Positions 9,301 through 25,564 of a stretch of DNA of 64,000 nucleotides are shown one piece after another (the stretch's first letter is position 1; the number at the start of each line of letters is the position of its first letter). The stretch is from Gimesia maris (lineage in GTDB: Bacteria > Planctomycetota > Planctomycetia > Planctomycetales > Planctomycetaceae): the NCBI RefSeq assembly GCF_008298035.1, contig NZ_CP042910.1:5037001-5101000 (forward strand). Reading direction: 5' to 3'. Below the pieces are notes generated by a model. It was not told the DNA's origin. It did not search any database and saw only the letters and a list, made by a program, of their open reading frames with translations. Made by a program: the position numbers and the translations under genes.

Positions 9301-10446
9301 ATGCTGCTTAACAATACGCGGATCAATCAATATTCCTGTACATTACAGTTTACAATCCTGCTGCTGGCCAGCCTGTTCCTGAATAACCCAAAAATCAGTG
9401 CACAAGAACAGCCCGATCAATCAGTGGAACTGCAGCAATTAGTTTCCAAGGTAAAACAGAACGAAGCCTTGTATCAGAATCTGCAGTTCAAACTGAATGC
9501 CACTGAAATCGATCAGGCTGAGTTAATTGAATACGAGGGTTCCCAACCAATCAAACGCCAGTCTACCATTTCTTTCATCAGACAGGGGAAGAAGTTCCGA
9601 CAGCAGATCCACACGAAAGGCCGGTTTGTTTTAAACTTCACTCTCGGCTTGTACTGGCTGCAGGATGGCTATCGTGCGTCAGATCCCGCGGAGATTCACA
9701 CAAATGAAACATGGATTCGAGTCGAATCAGGAACCAGAGAAAACCTGTCTCTGTTTGATGGAACAACTTTTCGCAGTTTCTGGAAAGAAAGTATGTCTGA
9801 TGAAGAAAACGAGGAACCGCCGCGTAACCAGAAACGTGGTCTGATTTCAGATTCACCATCCGGAACTCGGAACCAGACCAGTCCCCATCGTTTTCTGTTT
9901 GATTCCGGACAGCTACCTGTTTCGCTCTCCAGCTTTCTGACTGGAAAAGAAGCCGAACAGGCGATTACCGGAAAGTCCGCTTTGACAGCACGGGTTACGA
10001 AACTGGGCACAGAAACGTTTCAGGGCCTGGTTTGCACCACACTCCAGCTGGAGACCTTCGACTCGACTGGTAAACCCCGGTCTCGAACGGACCTCTGGCT
10101 GTCTCAAGATCGAAACCTGATTCCCGTGCGCAGAGAGGACTTCAATTACCACGTTTCAAAGGAACTCCCGATTTCAGCGTCCCTTGTTGAAGCCTGGCAG
10201 GAAGTCAGTCCCGGCGTCTGGTTCCCCAGCCAGGCTCACACGAACTACTACCGAGCCAGAGAGGGAAAACGAAACTCAGAACAAAAACCTTCAAGGCGGA
10301 AAGAGTATACTCTCGAAAGCATTGAACTGAACCCGCAACTGCCGACCGATATCTTCACAAAACTGGACTTCGAAGCAGGTACACCGGTATCAGTTGTTAC
10401 GGATGGAATCAGGGTAAAACACTTCAGACAGGGCACAGAAAAATAA
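9301..10446 (+). CDS. Secreted hypothetical protein, possibly LolA-like fold
   Basis: 381 residues. The ATG has a good ribosome-binding site (AAGGAG seven bases upstream). An N-terminal hydrophobic stretch ending near 'NPKISAQEQ' is a probable signal peptide with cleavage after about residue 34. The mature part has alternating strand-like segments ('STISFIRQGKKFRQQIHTKG', 'RSRTDLWLSQDRNLIPVRRE', 'AWQEVSPGVWFPSQAHTNYY') reminiscent of LolA/LppM-type half-barrels found in many planctomycete secreted proteins. That fold is inference. It converges on the RND outer-membrane gene with only 10 bases between stops. Confidence 0.7.
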   Translation: MLLNNTRINQYSCTLQFTILLLASLFLNNPKISAQEQPDQSVELQQLVSKVKQNEALYQNLQFKLNATEIDQAELIEYEGSQPIKRQSTISFIRQGKKFRQQIHTKGRFVLNFTLGLYWLQDGYRASDPAEIHTNETWIRVESGTRENLSLFDGTTFRSFWKESMSDEENEEPPRNQKRGLISDSPSGTRNQTSPHRFLFDSGQLPVSLSSFLTGKEAEQAITGKSALTARVTKLGTETFQGLVCTTLQLETFDSTGKPRSRTDLWLSQDRNLIPVRREDFNYHVSKELPISASLVEAWQEVSPGVWFPSQAHTNYYRAREGKRNSEQKPSRRKEYTLESIELNPQLPTDIFTKLDFEAGTPVSVVTDGIRVKHFRQGTEK

Positions 10447-10456
10447 ACAGGGAGAT

Positions 10457-12043
10457 TTACTCTTCTTCTTTCAGCATGGGTGGCACAACTCCATCCACTG
10501 CCGGTGAGGCATCTTCCTCGAGCATGGGTGGCACATATTGTTCATCTGTGATTGTAACCCGGCCGTAATCATATGTCGGGATCACGCCGCCGCCCCCCAG
10601 TGCCTGGTAGGTATTCACGATGGCAGCCAGTTGCTGCTGCTTGGTTTCAATCAGAACCACTTTCGCATCCTGCAGGTCACGCTGTGCCAGCAGTACATCG
10701 ACATATTCGGCGCGGGCGTTCTGGAACAGTTTTGTGGCAACATCGACCGATTCTTCAAGTGCTCTCAACTGCTGCTTTTTGATCTCGACGCTCTTGCCGT
10801 AATTCTCTACTTTGTTGATACGGTTAACCACTTCAGTGAACGCATTCAAAACAGTACGCTGATATTTATAAACGGCCTGCATCTGTCGGGCATTTGCATT
10901 GAGATAATCCGCCTTGATGGCGCGTCTGTTGATCACGGGAGCTACAAGTTCACCGACGGCATTATAAACCAGCGATTCCGGCGTAATAAAAAGATAGCGG
11001 GGATTAAAGGCCGAATACCCCACGCCGGCGTTCAATACCAGAGAGGGATAGAAGCGGGCCCGGGCAACCTGGATTTCAAGACCCGCTGCCTGCAATTCTC
11101 GTTCTGCCTGGCGAATATCGGCACGGTTATTCAGCATTTGAGATGGCACACCAATGTTAATCGTGTGCATATTGAGCTCGAAGAAATCCACCTGTTTGCG
11201 CTCGACAGACTGTGGATAACGACCGGCGAGGAAGTTGATTCGGTTTTCTGTTTCAATCAGCCTCTGCTGGATAATCAGCTTTTCACTCTGATTCTTGCGA
11301 ACTTCTGCCTGGAACCTCTGAACGGCCAATTCTGTTCCGCGCGCTGCTTCCTTGTTTGCCTTGGCAACTTCAAGACTTCGTTCCTGGAGTCCGATGGTGA
11401 TGTCCAACGTCTCTAACCGTTTGTCGAGAGCCAGCAACTCATAATAATTTTCTGCAATCTCTGCGATCAGACGCGTCGTGATATAGTTTCGCCCCTCCTC
11501 GGTAGCCAGATAGCGCAAGGAAGCTGCATCCCGGGAGTTTCGCAGCTTTCTCCAGATATCGATTTCCCACGAGATATCGGCTGCGAGCAGGAAGTTGGGG
11601 AGTGGTTCAGGAAACCCCTTACCGGGAGCGATCTGCAGTTGATCTTCCACAGCACCGGAACGGGTATAGCGCCCGGGTTTATCGATCCCTGCTCCAGCCC
11701 GCAAATTGAGGAAAGGCAGATAGGACCCTGTCCAGGCATAAGCCTCGTTGTTGGCGATATCAATGTCCTGAGCCAGGATTTTCAACTCCTGGTTATCGAC
11801 CATTGCCTGGTCAATCAACCCCGACAGCATGGGGTCGTCAAAAAGTACCGCAAAATCAAGTTCTGCCGAATTGGTTTCGTCGTAACTTCCGTTGAAGGTG
11901 TCCGGCATCCCCGGTCCCTCATCCGCATCTTGAAGGCAGGGAATTTTACACGACGTGAGTAAAAACATCAGAGACGAAATAACCGTCGGCCAGAAAGCGA
12001 GTCTCTTTATCTTCGAGGTAGAATATCGAAATGATAAAATCAT
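10457..12043 (-). CDS. RND efflux outer-membrane lipoprotein (NodT/OprM-like)
   Basis: 528 residues from the ATG at 12043, chosen because it directly precedes the signal peptide; an upstream in-frame start at 12097 adds 18 residues. The signal peptide ends in the lipobox L-T-S-C (Cys about 32), marking a lipoprotein. Two TolC-type repeats follow, with long alanine/glutamine-rich helices ('ETRINFLAGRYP'-like linker, 'RADIRQAERELQAAGLEIQ', 'RARFYPSLVLNAG'). The segment N-R-A-D-I-R-x-A-E is diagnostic of the NodT family. It is the outer-membrane channel of the pump encoded by the two upstream genes, 344 bases after the pump's stop. The C-terminus repeats 'PPMLEED' and 'PPMLKEE'. Confidence 0.9.
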   Translation of the reverse strand: MILSFRYSTSKIKRLAFWPTVISSLMFLLTSCKIPCLQDADEGPGMPDTFNGSYDETNSAELDFAVLFDDPMLSGLIDQAMVDNQELKILAQDIDIANNEAYAWTGSYLPFLNLRAGAGIDKPGRYTRSGAVEDQLQIAPGKGFPEPLPNFLLAADISWEIDIWRKLRNSRDAASLRYLATEEGRNYITTRLIAEIAENYYELLALDKRLETLDITIGLQERSLEVAKANKEAARGTELAVQRFQAEVRKNQSEKLIIQQRLIETENRINFLAGRYPQSVERKQVDFFELNMHTINIGVPSQMLNNRADIRQAERELQAAGLEIQVARARFYPSLVLNAGVGYSAFNPRYLFITPESLVYNAVGELVAPVINRRAIKADYLNANARQMQAVYKYQRTVLNAFTEVVNRINKVENYGKSVEIKKQQLRALEESVDVATKLFQNARAEYVDVLLAQRDLQDAKVVLIETKQQQLAAIVNTYQALGGGGVIPTYDYGRVTITDEQYVPPMLEEDASPAVDGVVPPMLKEEE

Positions 12044-20168: not shown

Positions 20169-20594
20169 TTACGCGTCGGCAGCGGTTACTGCAAATTCGA
20201 GACGGACCGCAGTCTCTTTTCCGACCGATATTTTTCCGCTGAAGAAATAAGCACCGCCCAGCTTTTCAGTCAGCGTCACCTGAATGTCGATCGTTTCTCC
20301 CGGCTTGACCATGCGGCGGAACTTGGTGTTATTCAAGCGGGTGGCGACAGGAACTTTGCCTGCATCAGGAGCATCCGTTTTCGCAATGAAGACGGCAGCG
20401 GCCTGCATCGCGGCTTCACATAGAATCACACCGGGCAGGACTGGATGATCTGGATAATGCCCCTGAAAGATGTCGATTTCAGGCGAAACGAACTTGCGGG
20501 CATGGATGCTGTTTTCTTCGAGCGTAACAACTTCATCGAGCCACAAAAAAGGCGCGCGATGAGGAATACAGGCTTTGATATCATCCAGATTCAC
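20169..20594 (-). CDS. FabZ/FabA-like 3-hydroxyacyl-ACP dehydratase
   Basis: 141 residues with a hotdog fold pattern. The catalytic His is H12 in 'IPHRAPFLWLDEV' and the catalytic Glu is E60 in 'GHYPDHPVLPGVILCEAAMQ', matching the P-H-R-x-P-F and H-F-P-x-x-P-x-x-P-G-V-x-x-x-E motifs of FabZ. Family reaction: removal of water from 3-hydroxyacyl-ACP to give trans-2-enoyl-ACP. It is the last gene of the minus-strand lipid cluster, 46 bases after the second flavoprotein. The clustering with a dedicated ketosynthase and carrier protein suggests a pathway-specific rather than housekeeping role. I therefore leave the symbol blank. Confidence 0.88.
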   Translation of the reverse strand: MNLDDIKACIPHRAPFLWLDEVVTLEENSIHARKFVSPEIDIFQGHYPDHPVLPGVILCEAAMQAAAVFIAKTDAPDAGKVPVATRLNNTKFRRMVKPGETIDIQVTLTEKLGGAYFFSGKISVGKETAVRLEFAVTAADA

Positions 20595-20640
20595 GAGAAC
20601 ATTCCGTTTCGTATTTGTTTAAAGTCAGATTCGGCAAGAA

Positions 20641-22068
20641 CTAAATGCGGGCGGCAGCGGGGGTCAGATATTTATCCACATCATTGCTGACAATCACCCC
20701 GTAATTCACGGCTCCCAGCCAGCCCGACATGATGATGCCCACCGAACCGGCATGATACAGACCTTCAATCTGTTCGGGCAGTTCCTTACTGACTTTGAGA
20801 CCTTCGAACTTGGTGCCGAATGATGCGCCCTGCAGATGCTGCGTATATCTTTGGAACGTGCGCGGCGTCGAAGCTTCGAGGTGATCCACACGTTCGCGAA
20901 TGTTGGGAACATACTGCTCAAGGCAATCGAGAGTGGTTTCGATCAGATGATTTTTGTCGGCTTCATACTGTTCTTCGGGGAGGTCGGCCCAGTCACTGAA
21001 GTTCGCATTCGTGGATGAGACGATCAGTGAACGATCACTGCCGGGACGCGTTTCCGGATAATAGAACGAGAAGGTACGACTGCTGACTTCTTTACTGAGC
21101 ATGGCTTTGATGTCGAACCCGTTATGCTCGGAATGGAACAGCAGATCGCCGCAGAAGTTGAGTTCATCACCGGGTTTGAGAGCGATATAAACCTGCGTAC
21201 TGCTGTTATTCAGCCGCACTGCTTTGGTTTCTTCGATGAATTCCGGATCGAAGTGCTCTTCACCGACGAGATTGAGAATCGTGCCTTTGATGTTCGAATT
21301 CGACATGATGGCTTTGCAGCCAATGCGTTTTCCGTTGACCACAACACCAGTCACACGACGATCAGAACTGACTTCGACTTTCTCGACCTGTGTGCGAATA
21401 CGCACATCGACGCCGTTCTTTTCCATTTCGGCTTTAATGAGCTTCACCAGGCGGTCTGTGCCACCACGGAAGGTGTAGACGCCTTTCTGCATGAAGTTGG
21501 AGAAGACAATTCCATAAGTGATCGCGGGATCTTCCAACGTAGATCCGTTGGCATAGGAGATCGGCTCCATCAGCAGGCGGACGACATCATCGCGACCGGG
21601 GAAGAATTCTTCAAAGAGTTCACGGGTCGTTTTCCCCTGATCGTCGAAGAAGTTCATTTTGCGGGCGGTATCGAAAAAGTTTTTGACAGTCTCGGGTGCA
21701 ATGCGGAATTTCTCAATCAGCAGCCGTGTGAAATCTTCACGCGTGAATGTTGTTTCCAGAGAGAACTGTGGATTTTCGAAGCGAACGCCGCGCAGAGGCA
21801 CGATGGAATCGGCGATTTCCTGGGTCCAGTATTTACGACAGCTCTTGAGCATTCCGTAAGGGAAGCCGTGCAGGGAAATATCGAAGATATGACCATTCTG
21901 GCGTTTGAACCAGGTGGCCATTCCGCCCAACTGGTAATGATGTTCGAGGAGCAGTACCGAATATCCCTGGCGGGCGAGGATGTTGGCAGAGGTCATGCCT
22001 GCCAGACCACTGCCGATCACAATGACATCATATTCGTCTTGAGTGTCTTTCAGAAAATCTTTGGCCAT
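20641..22068 (-). CDS. CrtI/retinol-saturase-like FAD oxidoreductase, second copy
   Basis: 475 residues. The N-terminal dinucleotide-binding motif is G-S-G-L-A-G in '[20 protein letters not shown]', followed by '[18 protein letters not shown]', where the acidic residue ends beta-2 and the GG-doublet follows. The C-terminal FAD motif is '[18 protein letters not shown]'. This is the phytoene desaturase / carotene isomerase / all-trans-retinol saturase superfamily, whose members add or remove double bonds in long hydrophobic chains. No carotenoid genes (crtB, crtY) lie nearby. The neighbours are acyl-carrier-protein chemistry, so an acyl or polyene substrate is inferred. It is separated from the first copy by 247 bases containing a terminator-like hairpin. 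Confidence 0.88.
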
Positions 22069-22214
22069 AATAATTCAGCGTCGTATTGAGTGTAGCAGAT
22101 GAAACAGAAAGGACAGCGACAGTTCACTGGTCCAGCATGAATGGCAAGTTTTTGCATCTCCTGTTTATCGAAAAACAGGGACTTTGTCTACTAAACCGCA
22201 ATAAATCAGGATGC

Positions 22215-22233
22215 TGTGACAAAAGTGTGACAA
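22215..22233. promoter_or_regulatory. Tandem TGTGACAA direct repeat
   Basis: TGTGACAA occurs at 22215-22222 and again at 22226-22233, exactly 11 bases apart (one helical turn). It is about 150 bases upstream of the second flavoprotein gene and downstream of the terminator-like hairpin. The spacing suits two protomers of a regulator binding the same DNA face. The regulator is unknown; the element could also be chance. Confidence 0.4.
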
Positions 22234-22251
22234 TTCCCCTCAGAGGAATAG

Positions 22252-22278
22252 AAAAAATCATGTCTTTTTGCCAGACAT
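22252..22278 (-). terminator. Terminator-like hairpin between the two flavoprotein genes
   Basis: On the minus strand the stem ATGTCT-GGCAAAA-AGACAT (22278-22260) is followed by GATTTTTT, a run of six T at 22252-22257. The stem has only six pairs and is AT-rich, so it may act as a partial attenuator. It lies 38 bases after the first flavoprotein's stop and implies that the last two genes of the cluster also have their own promoter. Confidence 0.55.
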
Positions 22279-22315
22279 AGAAGCAGGAGTACAGCATCTT
22301 TGCAGTCTGTTTTGT

Positions 22316-23701
22316 TTACTTCGCGTTCAGTAAATGCAGATTGGCTATGCTGATGCCGGAGAGCATTGAACCAATAATCCCCAGAAACCCCTGATCCGTA
22401 CCGCAGAGGAAAAGATTATCGAAGGGAGTCGTACCATCCAGGATTTTCTGCGGGGCACCGTAAACACACCCATTGATATGACCCGTGAATTTTTTGATGG
22501 TGCGCGGCGTAAAGGTATCGACGTCGATCACATGCGAACGGAAGTCTGGTATAAATCGCATTGAGGATTCGAGGATCTGATCGTACCAGTACTTCTTGGC
22601 TTCCAGATATTTTTCTTCCGGAAGATTCATCCAGTACCCCGGATTCGCCAGGGCAGTGATCCGGATCGAACCTTCTTCCAGCGGTTGATCGTACTCAAAA
22701 TTATTGGGTGAGCAGATAATCCCACTGCGAACATCGACCGGGTTTTTCGACTGTTCGTAGTAAAAGTCTTCGGAATCGTTATAGAACACAATGGTTTCGT
22801 TGTGATCAAATTCAGCAGGTTGCTGATCAAGTACGGAAATGGTTTCGACAAAAGATATTTCCCCGGGAGTAAAACGATCATCCTCGGTAACATTCTCGCC
22901 ACACAACTGCAGTGTCTCTGCCGACCCTGCTGATGACAGCACATTTTTCGCTTCGAGTATCTGGCCATCATCGAGAACCACGCCTGAAACGTGTTTGCCA
23001 TCTGTAACCAGCTGCTGTACTCCCGCCCGTAATTTAAGTTCGCCTCCCAGCGATTTGAATTTTTTCACCAGGTTCTTCAGAATCAACCGCACACCTTTGT
23101 AGGGACGGGCAAATCCTTCCTGATAGATGCTGCGGAACATGATCACGAACTGATTGAAATCCATGTCATGCTCTGACGGGCTGCCATAAAACATCAGCGG
23201 GCAGAGCAGCATGTTGATTAACAGGGGATCGGAAATATGCTCGGCCATGCGAGCGCGGGCGGAAATCCAGGTCTGTCCCAGGTCGCCGATATTATGAGTG
23301 TCTATTTCCGCGACCAGACGGCGAAAGCCATCAATCTGGCTGGGAAACTGCGTTGCAATCTCAGCTTCGAAGTATGAGAATTCGTTATTGAACCGCAGTG
23401 TGTGCCCCGGAAAGACGACAGAAGAACCGAACTGCGGACTGAGATCAAAGTCTTCCCAGCTGAAGCGGAGCTGTCTGAGAATTTTATTCAGTGGCCCCCG
23501 TTTTCCGCCGGGAGGTGAATAATTGGTAATTGCGTGCAGGCCCACATCATGATTTCGCCCGCGCAGGCGATAAAAGGAATTCAGGCCACCAATCGTGGTG
23601 TGCCTCTCCAGAATGCAAACCTGTTTCCCATAATAAGCCAGCCGGATTCCAGCGGCCAGCCCAGACAGGCCGGCACCGATAATGATTGAATCGTAGGTCA
23701 T
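22316..23701 (-). CDS. CrtI/retinol-saturase-like FAD oxidoreductase, first copy
   Basis: 461 residues. FAD-binding N-terminus 'YDSIIIGAGLSGLAAGIRLA' (G-x-G-x-x-G), then 'VCILERHTTIGGLNSFYRLR'. The C-terminal cofactor motif is 'DNLFLCGTDQGFLGIIGSML'. Same superfamily as the second copy but only distantly similar, so the two probably act on different intermediates. It begins 21 bases after the acyl carrier protein gene, which strongly suggests co-transcription and use of a carrier-bound acyl chain. Whether it desaturates, saturates or isomerises cannot be read from sequence. Confidence 0.88.
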   Translation of the reverse strand: MTYDSIIIGAGLSGLAAGIRLAYYGKQVCILERHTTIGGLNSFYRLRGRNHDVGLHAITNYSPPGGKRGPLNKILRQLRFSWEDFDLSPQFGSSVVFPGHTLRFNNEFSYFEAEIATQFPSQIDGFRRLVAEIDTHNIGDLGQTWISARARMAEHISDPLLINMLLCPLMFYGSPSEHDMDFNQFVIMFRSIYQEGFARPYKGVRLILKNLVKKFKSLGGELKLRAGVQQLVTDGKHVSGVVLDDGQILEAKNVLSSAGSAETLQLCGENVTEDDRFTPGEISFVETISVLDQQPAEFDHNETIVFYNDSEDFYYEQSKNPVDVRSGIICSPNNFEYDQPLEEGSIRITALANPGYWMNLPEEKYLEAKKYWYDQILESSMRFIPDFRSHVIDVDTFTPRTIKKFTGHINGCVYGAPQKILDGTTPFDNLFLCGTDQGFLGIIGSMLSGISIANLHLLNAK

Positions 23702-23722
23702 GGCGGAGGGATATTACGGGAT

Positions 23723-23986
23723 TCAGACGGTGCTTTCCGCATCCTTCAGGAGTGGTGTCAGGTAGGTTACAGTGCTGTCCATAGTTACCAGTTCACCGTA
23801 GTCTTCTTCGGGAATCTGTACACGATAGAGTTTGCGTAACTCCATGACAATATCCAGAAAATCCATGCTGTCCAGTTCCATCTGCTCCCGGAAAGGAACA
23901 CTGTCGTCCAGATCCGAAAGATCTTCATCGGGAGCAATACGAGACAAGATATCCAAGATTACCGATCTGATTTGTTCCGGCGCCAT
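23723..23986 (-). CDS. Acyl carrier protein
   Basis: 87 residues, strongly acidic, with the phosphopantetheine attachment motif L-D-S-M-D (Ser40, 'EQMELDSMDFLDIVMELR') placed where it belongs, before helix II. The spacing to helix III ('RVQIPEEDYGELVTM') is normal for ACPs. It lies between the ketosynthase and the first flavoprotein gene and is probably the dedicated carrier of this cluster. A housekeeping acpP would normally sit beside fabD, fabG and fabF, which are absent here. Confidence 0.9.
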   Translation of the reverse strand: MAPEQIRSVILDILSRIAPDEDLSDLDDSVPFREQMELDSMDFLDIVMELRKLYRVQIPEEDYGELVTMDSTVTYLTPLLKDAESTV

Positions 23987-24313
23987 GCAGAAACTCCAAA
24001 CTTTCTAAAAATCCAATAACGTCGATTTCGTGCAGCGAAGCTCACAAATATCACGGGAAAACCCGGTCAGGGGAAGACCCTTATAACAAACGAAGAATCT
24101 CCCCGCTAGAAGCCGGGTCCGAAAAACCCGCCCCTCATGAGGAATACTATAACCCGATCTAATAATGGATTTAAACCGACTCAGGCCCGGATAAAGCAGA
24201 GTTTTTCAGAAAATCCATATGGAATCGGCATTTACGATGGGTGAACACTGTTTCTTAAACGAAAGATCCAACGCTCGTTTATAGAAGGACTGATGGCCGT
24301 TGAACAGTGTCCA
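23987..24313. other. Gap between ketosynthase and acyl carrier protein genes
   Basis: 327 bases without a gene. It starts (reading the minus strand) with a 7-bp hairpin CTGATGG/CCATCAG at 24290-24317 overlapping the ketosynthase stop codon, without a T-run. Several short GC hairpins of the CGGG/CCCG kind follow before the carrier-protein gene. It probably contains a promoter for the downstream genes; I could not assign its hexamers. Confidence 0.4.
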
Positions 24314-25564
24314 TCAGGCAGAATATTTTTTGACAATCAGAACGGAATTGATTCCCAGCATTCCAAACGAGTTATTCAGAATACATTCTACTCGTTCCAT
24401 CTGACGAGGTGTATTCTGAACCAGTTGAGGCAATTTGCATTCTGGATCGAGTTCATCGAGATTCAGTGTGGCGTGAGCGATACCGTCTTCGAATGCGGGC
24501 AGATTCCCCAGCATTTCCAGCGCGCCGGCGGCTCCCATCGCATGTCCAATAAAACTCTTGGTATTGTTGATCGCCAGGTTGGGGCAATCGCCAAACACGC
24601 TGGCAAGCGCTTTCGCTTCTTCTATATCCCCCTGGTGCGTTGCCGTGGCGTGGCTGCTGACAATATCAATATCTTCAGGCTTTAAACCAGCCCGTTTGAG
24701 TGCCAGATGAATGCACTCCGCCTGCCGGGTTGAATTGGGAAGCACGAAATCACTGGCATCGGAATTCATCGCATAACCGATAATTTCACCGTAAATCGTC
24801 GCGCCGCGGGCCAATGCATCAGGCAGACGCTCTAAAGTACAGACAGCGCCCCCCTCGGCAACCACGATCCCGTTCCGCTGCACATCGAAGGGTCGACAGG
24901 CTTTCGTGGGATCTTCATTCACTGCTAAAGCTCCCTGGCTCTGGAAGCTGGCGAAAATCCCAAACGTGTGAATACTCTCGGAAACGCCACCGCATAAGGC
25001 CATATCGACTTCATTCAGCCGCAGCATCTGCACGCCTTGAATGAATCCGGCATTTCCAGCAGCACAGGCAGCCCCCAGCGTCAGATGAGGACCGGTAATC
25101 CCCAGATTGAGAGTCACTTCGCCGGCTGGATTATTTGCGACAGTCCGCGGGTTATGATGATGCGACCAGACTTTGGTATCATAATCAAACTGCGAAATCT
25201 CGTAGACTTCGTTTTCCGTCTCGACATTCCCATGCTCGGTAATCCCCAGATAAACGCCGACACGATCACGGGCCACGTTTTCCCAGTCCAGACCAGATTG
25301 ATTGACTGCTTCATTCGCACAGTAGACAGCAATAGAGCCGGCACGTGTTCCGCGACGGACTTCTTTTCGTTTCTGGTAGCGTAATTCGTCAAAATTACAG
25401 ACGCCGGCAAGGACATCTCCCATATAGCGGATGTTGTAGTCCACAACTCCCGAACGGCCAGCCAGTAGACTTTGCCGAAATTCATCCAGATTGTTGCCAT
25501 TCGGAGCGGTTAATCCGATCCCTGTAATGACGATTCTGCTTTGATCATCCATTGATGCCTGCAT
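24314..25564 (-). CDS. Beta-ketoacyl-ACP synthase (KAS II-like)
   Basis: 416 residues from the ATG at 25564 (an ATG at 25552 is almost as good; an upstream start at 25705 adds a non-homologous-looking leader). Thiolase fold with the full triad: C167 in 'LTLGAACAAGNAG', H305 in 'SSHATATHQGD' and H341 in 'SFIGHAMGAAGAL'. Family reaction: decarboxylative condensation of malonyl-ACP with an acyl chain. The usual H-G-T-G-T around the first His reads H-A-T-A-T, an unusual double Gly-to-Ala change. It heads the minus-strand lipid cluster and diverges from the sigma-factor gene. Confidence 0.9.
   Translation of the reverse strand: MQASMDDQSRIVITGIGLTAPNGNNLDEFRQSLLAGRSGVVDYNIRYMGDVLAGVCNFDELRYQKRKEVRRGTRAGSIAVYCANEAVNQSGLDWENVARDRVGVYLGITEHGNVETENEVYEISQFDYDTKVWSHHHNPRTVANNPAGEVTLNLGITGPHLTLGAACAAGNAGFIQGVQMLRLNEVDMALCGGVSESIHTFGIFASFQSQGALAVNEDPTKACRPFDVQRNGIVVAEGGAVCTLERLPDALARGATIYGEIIGYAMNSDASDFVLPNSTRQAECIHLALKRAGLKPEDIDIVSSHATATHQGDIEEAKALASVFGDCPNLAINNTKSFIGHAMGAAGALEMLGNLPAFEDGIAHATLNLDELDPECKLPQLVQNTPRQMERVECILNNSFGMLGINSVLIVKKYSA

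Follow-up and report, generated by a model that had tools for sequence, protein, structure and literature searches.

A block of five genes in a 64,000 nt stretch of the Gimesia maris genome (contig NZ_CP042910.1, positions 5,037,001 to 5,101,000; the whole stretch is referred to as the window) encodes a ketosynthase (KS), an acyl carrier protein (ACP), two flavoproteins with the CrtI/CrtD fold (FLV1 and FLV2) and a FabZ-like dehydratase. Comparison across the phylum Planctomycetota indicates that this block is probably a type II supplier, made of discrete enzymes, that provides a polyunsaturated acyl chain to OleABCD in place of the polyunsaturated synthase Pfa, with polyenes of the C31 type as the probable products. 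The window comes from a planctomycete genome of 7.8 Mb assembled as a single contig.

Conservation of the block in Planctomycetota

A sample of 294 Planctomycetota genomes was searched for FLV2 at a threshold of E<=1e-60, and FLV2 was present in 66. FLV1 was found in 65 of these, the lone exception (G273) having just an FLV2 fragment, and in a single one of 14 further genomes (G282; 0/13 apart from it). Genomic neighbourhoods were fetched as 50 stretches from 50 of the 66 FLV2 genomes, some ending at contig ends. KS, ACP, FLV1 and FLV2 lay on one strand in 26 of the 50, and their order was the same in all 26, which argues against a chance arrangement. For the remaining 24, at least one of the four genes was not found on that strand; FabZ shared the strand of the block in 33/50. 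The five genes thus form a conserved unit in related genomes, in agreement with the original prediction, which had been made from the letters of the window alone.

A scan of named genomes returned at least 569 relatives of FLV2. Among the best 80 of these, 77 were labelled as planctomycetes, and the others as 'bacterium' (L176), 'Deltaproteobacteria' (L196) and 'Dehalococcoidia' (L199). KS, ACP, FLV1 and FLV2 occurred on one strand in 24 of these 80 loci, including those of Blastopirellula sp. NORP48, Botrimarina colliarenosi and Bythopirellula polymerisocia. The closest named FLV2 among the matches listed, from which records of the window's own genome may have been left out, was that of an uncultured Gimesia, with 93% identity.

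Linkage and co-occurrence with ole genes

Neighbouring open reading frames (ORFs) were clustered and then subjected to similarity searches, which placed oleA, oleB, oleC, oleD, FabG and a FabI-like reductase next to the block. The gene order oleA-oleB-oleC-oleD-KS-ACP-FLV1-FLV2-FabZ-ENR was found in six loci (L048, L050, L054, L056, L057 and L084), and in L040, L041, L058, L062 and L081 the Ole genes were located downstream of the block or flanked it on both sides. One or more Ole genes were present in 24/50 stretches. FabG on the strand of the block (13/50) and the FabI-like reductase (27/50) were counted in these fetched stretches rather than in the window's genome.

OleA was identified by NF006720, above cut-off, and by matches to the solved chains 3row, 3s21 and 5vxf, which we take to be Xanthomonas OleA. 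At E<=1e-50, OleA was present in 105 of the 294 genomes, namely 65 of the 66 with FLV2 and 40 of the 228 without it (lists compared by hand; Fisher p ~6e-36, a value that ignores relatedness). The window's genome has OleA, B, C and D, all dispersed. OleA is located at G000:C1:16734-17777 (NF006720, 403 bits against a cut-off of 285), OleB at C1:3113586-3114431 (E 3.6e-85 to the OleB of a relative) and OleC at C1:2690387-2691982, with OleD adjoining. The curated models for OleB, C and D were run on proteins of a relative rather than on those of the window's genome: its OleC passed NF006754 and failed the olefin beta-lactone synthetase cut-offs, its OleD was below its two cut-offs, and its OleB matched haloalkane dehalogenase models below cut-off.

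Mutual exclusion with Pfa and types of OleA

PfaD (TIGR02814 over cut-off) was used as the marker of the Pfa synthase and sought in 80 OleA genomes. It was present in 0/40 genomes with FLV2 and in 37/40 without, a near-perfect exclusion for which the Fisher values again ignore relatedness. The three FLV2-negative OleA genomes without PfaD were G282, which is 54% complete and carries FLV1, G141, whose OleA groups with the Pfa-type OleA, and G003, in which neither supplier was found. The 105 OleA genomes divide into 66 with FLV1 and/or FLV2, 37 with PfaD and two with neither found. The window's genome gave no match for PfaD, and for PfaA five model matches of which none was over cut-off (best 131 against 1010 bits). 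Both suppliers occur within f1, the family of the window, where Pfa is found in the genera g5 and g8, and within f48, where the block is found in G277 and Pfa in G056 and G110. The split between block and Pfa is therefore unlikely to reflect one ancient event.

An OleA tree was constructed from 20 block-type rows, eight of the 37 Pfa-type rows, two unassigned rows and an outgroup. The eight Pfa-type rows and the unassigned G141 lie behind a 100/100 branch; many of the deep forks are without resolution. Both Pfa genera of f1 fall inside the Pfa-type group, and the two block genera of f1 in the tree group apart from them. OleA type thus tracks the supplier, even within the window's own family. 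A simple account of this pattern is that supplier and condensing enzyme are functionally matched; it would also arise if pfa-ole clusters were transferred as a whole, which is consistent with the same reading.

Relationships of the two flavoproteins

The closest NCBIfam models to FLV1 and FLV2 were those for carotenoid isomerase, CrtI and CrtD, with all scores far under cut-off (FLV2: TIGR02733, 113 against 549.7 bits; TIGR02730, 94 against 586.9; TIGR02734, 84 against 238.1; FLV1: TIGR02730, 76 against 586.9). FLV2 is strongly conserved, with a mean column identity of 64% over 27 sequences. The predicted structures were confident (predicted local distance difference test 92 for FLV1 and 90 for FLV2), and the best solved-fold match of both was the gamma-carotenoid desaturase 4rep. 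For FLV1 this was followed by CrtI (4dgk) and then plant phytoene desaturase; for FLV2, plant phytoene desaturase ranked fifth and CrtI only 21st, amid nicotine and amine oxidases. Identity to these carotenoid enzymes was 14-19% throughout, and a sequence search of the PDB gave only weak flavoprotein matches. A plasmid collection yielded six records for FLV2 (20-26% identity) and one for FLV1, and served as the source of CrtI/CrtD and other flavoprotein references.

A flavoprotein tree was built from 44 sequences, with CRTISO and retinol saturase outside its scope. The FLV1 clade and the FLV2 clade are each split off by a 100/100 branch, and the five CrtI and two CrtD references sit past a separate 100/100 branch. 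Six anammox CrtI-like proteins form a group of their own (100/100). Support is lower (92-93/76-80) for the deeper joins of FLV1, FLV2, the anammox group and a further two proteins, and long branches drew a warning from the program. The sub-cut-off scores and the tree placement rule out FLV1 and FLV2 as true CrtI or CrtD, and the two proteins are, as the original prediction had anticipated, distinct from these carotenoid enzymes. CrtI-fold enzymes occur both as desaturases and as isomerases, so that sequence cannot decide which of these FLV1 and FLV2 are.

Two observations on related flavoproteins were made. In genome G156, FLV1 is matched twice with the same score, once on each strand and with about 1.1 kb between the two sites (G156:C37:7613-8947, minus; 10077-11411, plus); this is either a true inverted duplication or an assembly artefact. 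A Pseudalkalibacillus hwajinpoensis plasmid (L223, 993-5446) encodes an ACP, a '2-oxo acid dehydrogenase subunit E2', a CrtI-like flavoprotein, an enoyl-CoA hydratase/isomerase and a FabZ family protein; its flavoprotein falls close to the anammox proteins, but support is weak (92/76), and the cluster is possibly another acyl-chain pathway with a CrtI-fold enzyme.

Features of the five genes

All five ORFs of the original prediction were recovered on one strand, and family searches agree with the assignments (Table 1). It had also stated that the block holds no carotenoid gene; none was recognised by family searches among the five proteins. A search of the whole window genome with FLV2 at E<=1e-5 matched only FLV2 and FLV1, phytoene synthase being outside that search.

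Table 1. Genes of the block, with positions counted from the first letter of the window
Gene	Predicted product	Position	Strand	Length (aa)	Basis
KS	KAS-II/FabF-like ketosynthase	24314..25564	-	416	TIGR03150 fabF 5e-94
ACP	Dedicated acyl carrier protein	23723..23986	-	87	PF00550 6.9e-7; phosphopantetheine serine in LDSMD
FLV1	CrtI/CrtD-fold flavoprotein	22316..23701	-	461	NAD_binding_8/Amino_oxidase; own clade
FLV2	Second CrtI/CrtD-fold flavoprotein	20641..22068	-	475	NAD_binding_8/Amino_oxidase; own clade
FabZ	FabZ-like 3-hydroxyacyl-ACP dehydratase, GTG start	20169..20594	-	141	FabZ 2.8e-31; His/Glu pair

The KS scored 315 bits against the fabF equivalog cut-off of 493.75 and is thus a divergent member of KAS II (FabF). 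Its start codon is uncertain, either the ATG at 25564 or that of a longer TTG ORF reaching 25705. The catalytic Cys-His-Lys-His residues are intact in the window KS as read in the sequence. Across the set of block KS proteins, pattern matching recovered the Cys in 27/27, the His in 26/27 and the Lys-His in 25/27, and the three misses were intact by eye. The dehydratase scored 108 bits for FabZ (cut-off 113) and 21 for FabA (cut-off 238), and its active site has Glu, not Asp, as in all 35 rows with a GHYP/GHFP motif, the window included. The enzyme is thus of FabZ type and not FabA-like.

In the window's genome the block is possibly transcribed in more than one unit, given gaps of about 330 bases between KS and ACP and of 247 bases between FLV1 and FLV2. 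Promoter-like patterns around it were at chance (7 against 7.1). Terminator-like patterns numbered 14 against a shuffled mean of 5.8 and, with 10 of the 14 inside genes, were given no weight.

In six genomes of the family f25, the FabZ ORF of the block holds an in-frame, stop-free domain with an MPNHVH motif between the dehydratase halves (L048:11967-13121, L050:7563-8702, L053:8261-9364, L054:8047-9231, L057:10346-11545 and L060:4261-5655). Judged by this motif, the domain resembles a REP-associated tyrosine transposase. The OleC of L057 has a short Gly/Pro/Ala-rich insert that resembles a translated repeat element.

Comparison with Pfa and anammox systems

The Pfa synthase (PfaA-D), which feeds OleABCD in Shewanella and Geobacter, resembles the block as a dedicated supplier of acyl chains that is linked to oleABCD or occurs in the same genomes, and it takes the same genomic place in related planctomycetes. 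Unlike the block, with its discrete KS, ACP and FabZ and its two flavoproteins, Pfa is a megasynthase of type I that has FabA-like domains and PfaD. FLV1 and FLV2 share the fold and FAD-binding architecture of CrtI, CrtD and carotenoid isomerase, but they fall outside the CrtI/CrtD reference clade and their partners are acyl-chain enzymes.

The available text of Rattray et al. 2009 (PMC2649909) proposes that type II fatty acid synthase (FASII) clusters with phytoene-dehydrogenase-like genes produce polyunsaturated fatty acids (PUFA) and C31:9 in Desulfotalea psychrophila and ladderanes in Kuenenia. For D. psychrophila it gives three CrtI-like genes, two of them numbered consecutively (DP2405, DP2406), which are proposed to act since no polyketide-type PUFA pathway was found. 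The idea of polyunsaturated chains from FASII and CrtI-like flavoproteins without Pfa is thus shared with the block. That text concerns clusters of K. stuttgartiensis and D. psychrophila with radical-SAM genes, and describes in the part available no ole link, Pfa exclusion or planctomycete block.

The anammox lineages in the sample were taken to be the families f44 and f75 (17 genomes), on the basis of HZS_alpha (PF18582) matches in ORFs of approximately 810-845 aa. PF18582 as a plain anammox marker was dropped, as it also matches many genomes outside these families, often in multiple copies. These further matches (e.g. G036, G145, G158, G160, G277 and G290) are in large ORFs, with at least 16 sites in the richest genome, and represent a paralogous family. 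FLV2 had no match in the 17 anammox genomes at E<=1e-60; its profile matched 14 of them more weakly (best E 9.6e-33, 114 bits), and whole anammox ORFs reached at most 178 bits with the FLV2 profile and 133 bits with the FLV1 profile. Two loci titled Candidatus Kuenenia stuttgartiensis (L136 and L137) have an FLV2 79% identical to that of the window. These labels look wrong, because the 17 presumed anammox genomes are without FLV2 at the above threshold.

Six anammox loci have a common layout by ORF size, namely ACP, FabZ, two KS, a flavoprotein and an ORF of about 485 aa, which matches kuste3603-3608 as given in the available text of PMC4790861; the same text reports that two Kuenenia CrtI-like proteins gave no lycopene. 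BLAST matches in L215, L216 and L219 bore out the assignment of FabZ, the two KS and the flavoprotein. The radical-SAM label of L215_18 was read from the sequence and the kuste layout rather than from a domain search. ACP, FabZ, FabF and a CrtI-like flavoprotein are found together in this cluster type, as in the block, but it has a single flavoprotein of a separate clade, a radical-SAM-like gene and a second KS without the active-site Cys (read in the sequence of L215). The comparison covers one of the two Kuenenia CrtI-like types, the 3607-like one, and for this type the separate clade, an identity of about 24% to FLV2 and the profile scores led us to reject FLV1 and FLV2 as orthologues of the anammox ladderane-cluster enzyme. 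The original prediction was right that the host is non-anammox, and its close link to the ladderane cluster was not supported for the flavoprotein type compared.

Proposed pathway

In the proposed pathway, KS would condense the growing chain with malonyl-ACP on the block's own ACP, FabG (encoded on the block strand or elsewhere in the genome) would reduce the product, the FabZ-like enzyme would dehydrate it, and the FabI-like reductase would saturate it where required. Because the FabZ of the block is not FabA-like, another enzyme must isomerise or desaturate if double bonds are to persist, and FLV1 and FLV2 are proposed for this role because they are the only candidates within the block. They may introduce or move the retained double bonds as acyl-ACP desaturases or as redox-neutral isomerases, and would take over the work of the FabA-like domains inside the Pfa megasynthase. 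Two block-made chains would then be coupled head to head by OleA and converted by OleD, OleC and OleB into a long-chain polyene, for which C31:9 is the probable type. The transfer of substrate to OleA, the chain length, the double-bond number and the reaction of each flavoprotein are thus predicted from the genomic patterns.

The C31:9 class is considered a likely product because the Shewanella C31:9 precursor chain is made by Pfa (PMC6463001, in the text available) and C31:8/C31:9 hydrocarbons have been reported from D. psychrophila and Planctomycetes (PMC2649909, likewise). The olefin producers tested by Sukovich in 2010 also included planctomycetes, according to the portion of PMC7158056 that names the phylum. 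The original prediction of a dedicated acyl chain, built on its own ACP and probably altered by the two flavoproteins, is supported by these results; its wholly undescribed lipid gives way to a known class, long-chain polyene hydrocarbon, as indicated by the OleABCD link and the Pfa exclusion, both of which it had missed. Overall, that interpretation was partly supported. The two outcomes that would have refuted it, a grouping of the flavoproteins with true carotenoid enzymes and a block not kept together in relatives, were looked for and not seen, in a tree whose carotenoid references were CrtI and CrtD.

Alternative interpretations

An unlikely alternative, though one deserving some weight, is that the block feeds OleABCD a special chain that is not polyunsaturated (e.g. 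monounsaturated, branched or conjugated), giving another olefin. Xanthomonas OleA products derive from saturated, monounsaturated or branched fatty acid synthase (FAS) chains (PMC6463001, in part), two flavoproteins and one FabZ need not mean many double bonds, and the curated families are silent on the product. Ordinary FAS would supply such plain chains, though, leaving a dedicated KS, ACP and two flavoproteins superfluous, and by the PfaD distribution the block stands in for a synthase of polyunsaturated chains. A role in membrane lipids, with a polyunsaturated or otherwise unusual fatty acid as the block's own product and a secondary link to OleABCD, is rather improbable. The Ole genes do not adjoin the block in the window's genome, and Pfa synthases elsewhere also yield membrane PUFA (PMC6463001, in part), but FLV2 occurs without OleA in just 1/66 genomes, as a fragment in an incomplete assembly, and OleA type shifts with the supplier.

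Ladderane-type chemistry as in anammox bacteria, yielding a ladderane or precursor lipid, is very improbable. The parts list of FabF, ACP, FabZ and CrtI-like protein does match kuste3603-3608 (PMC4790861, in part) and the anammox loci examined here; against this, the anammox flavoprotein forms its separate 100/100 clade, the best anammox score for the FLV2 profile compares with 6.0e-246 (818 bits) for the positive control G277, and the window block has neither a radical-SAM gene nor a cysteine-less second KS. We give hardly any credence to the idea that FAS genes were recruited into a pathway for carotenoids or apocarotenoids: the nearest curated families and the top solved fold of both flavoproteins are of carotenoid enzymes, but all scores are far under the carotenoid cut-offs, the CrtI/CrtD references are separated at 100/100, and the partners of the block are FAS and Ole genes.

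Several points weigh against a polyunsaturated supplier of OleABCD. No Ole gene was found in 26/50 stretches, and plus-strand Ole genes were fewer still in the 80 named loci (OleD 15, OleC 4, OleA 2 and OleB 1), although many of these loci are short and minus-strand genes were uncounted. Megabases separate the Ole genes from the block in the window's genome, and in several genera of f1 the block genes themselves have drifted apart. G273 (80% complete), with its FLV2 fragment, has no OleA match, and G003 and G141 have OleA with neither supplier found. The PfaD search took in 40 of the 66 FLV2 genomes, leaving out the other 26 and the OleA-negative genomes. Block-type OleA rows are not one clade, as the f21 rows L049, L082 and L112 are sister to the Pfa-type (96/87). 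The exclusion between block and Pfa is one of functional equivalence, not proof of the same product, and without a FabA signature in FabZ, isomerisation rests wholly on the flavoproteins. In addition, the C31:9 planctomycetes cited in the available text of PMC2649909 (Schlesneria, Singulisphaera) may be Pfa-type.

Implications

The idea of FASII and CrtI-like proteins producing PUFA was already proposed in 2009 for Kuenenia and Desulfotalea; new here is the planctomycete block as a probable discrete-enzyme supplier that would feed polyunsaturated chains to Ole. No published description of the planctomycete block, its ole linkage, the Pfa exclusion or the OleA switching was found in the open-access literature, where mainly titles and abstracts were searched, which is weak evidence of novelty. 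More broadly, the chances are about even that the block represents a third bacterial route to PUFA chains: a type II synthase in which two CrtI-fold flavoproteins set the double bonds on an ACP-bound chain, rather than O2-dependent membrane desaturases or the FabA-like domains of Pfa, and which occurs widely across Planctomycetota and can be exchanged for Pfa ahead of OleABCD.

Planctomycete C31 polyenes have been reported, and their known route is via Pfa. At least 40 of the sampled genomes have OleA without PfaD, and the block is a candidate to fill this gap, which makes the question of polyene supply testable one gene at a time. If the proposal is true, it would add acyl-ACP flavoprotein desaturases or isomerases to the enzymes of PUFA-chain synthesis, and it would be relevant to the suggestion made in 2009 that flavoproteins of this sort are behind the polyenes of Desulfotalea and the precursors of ladderanes.

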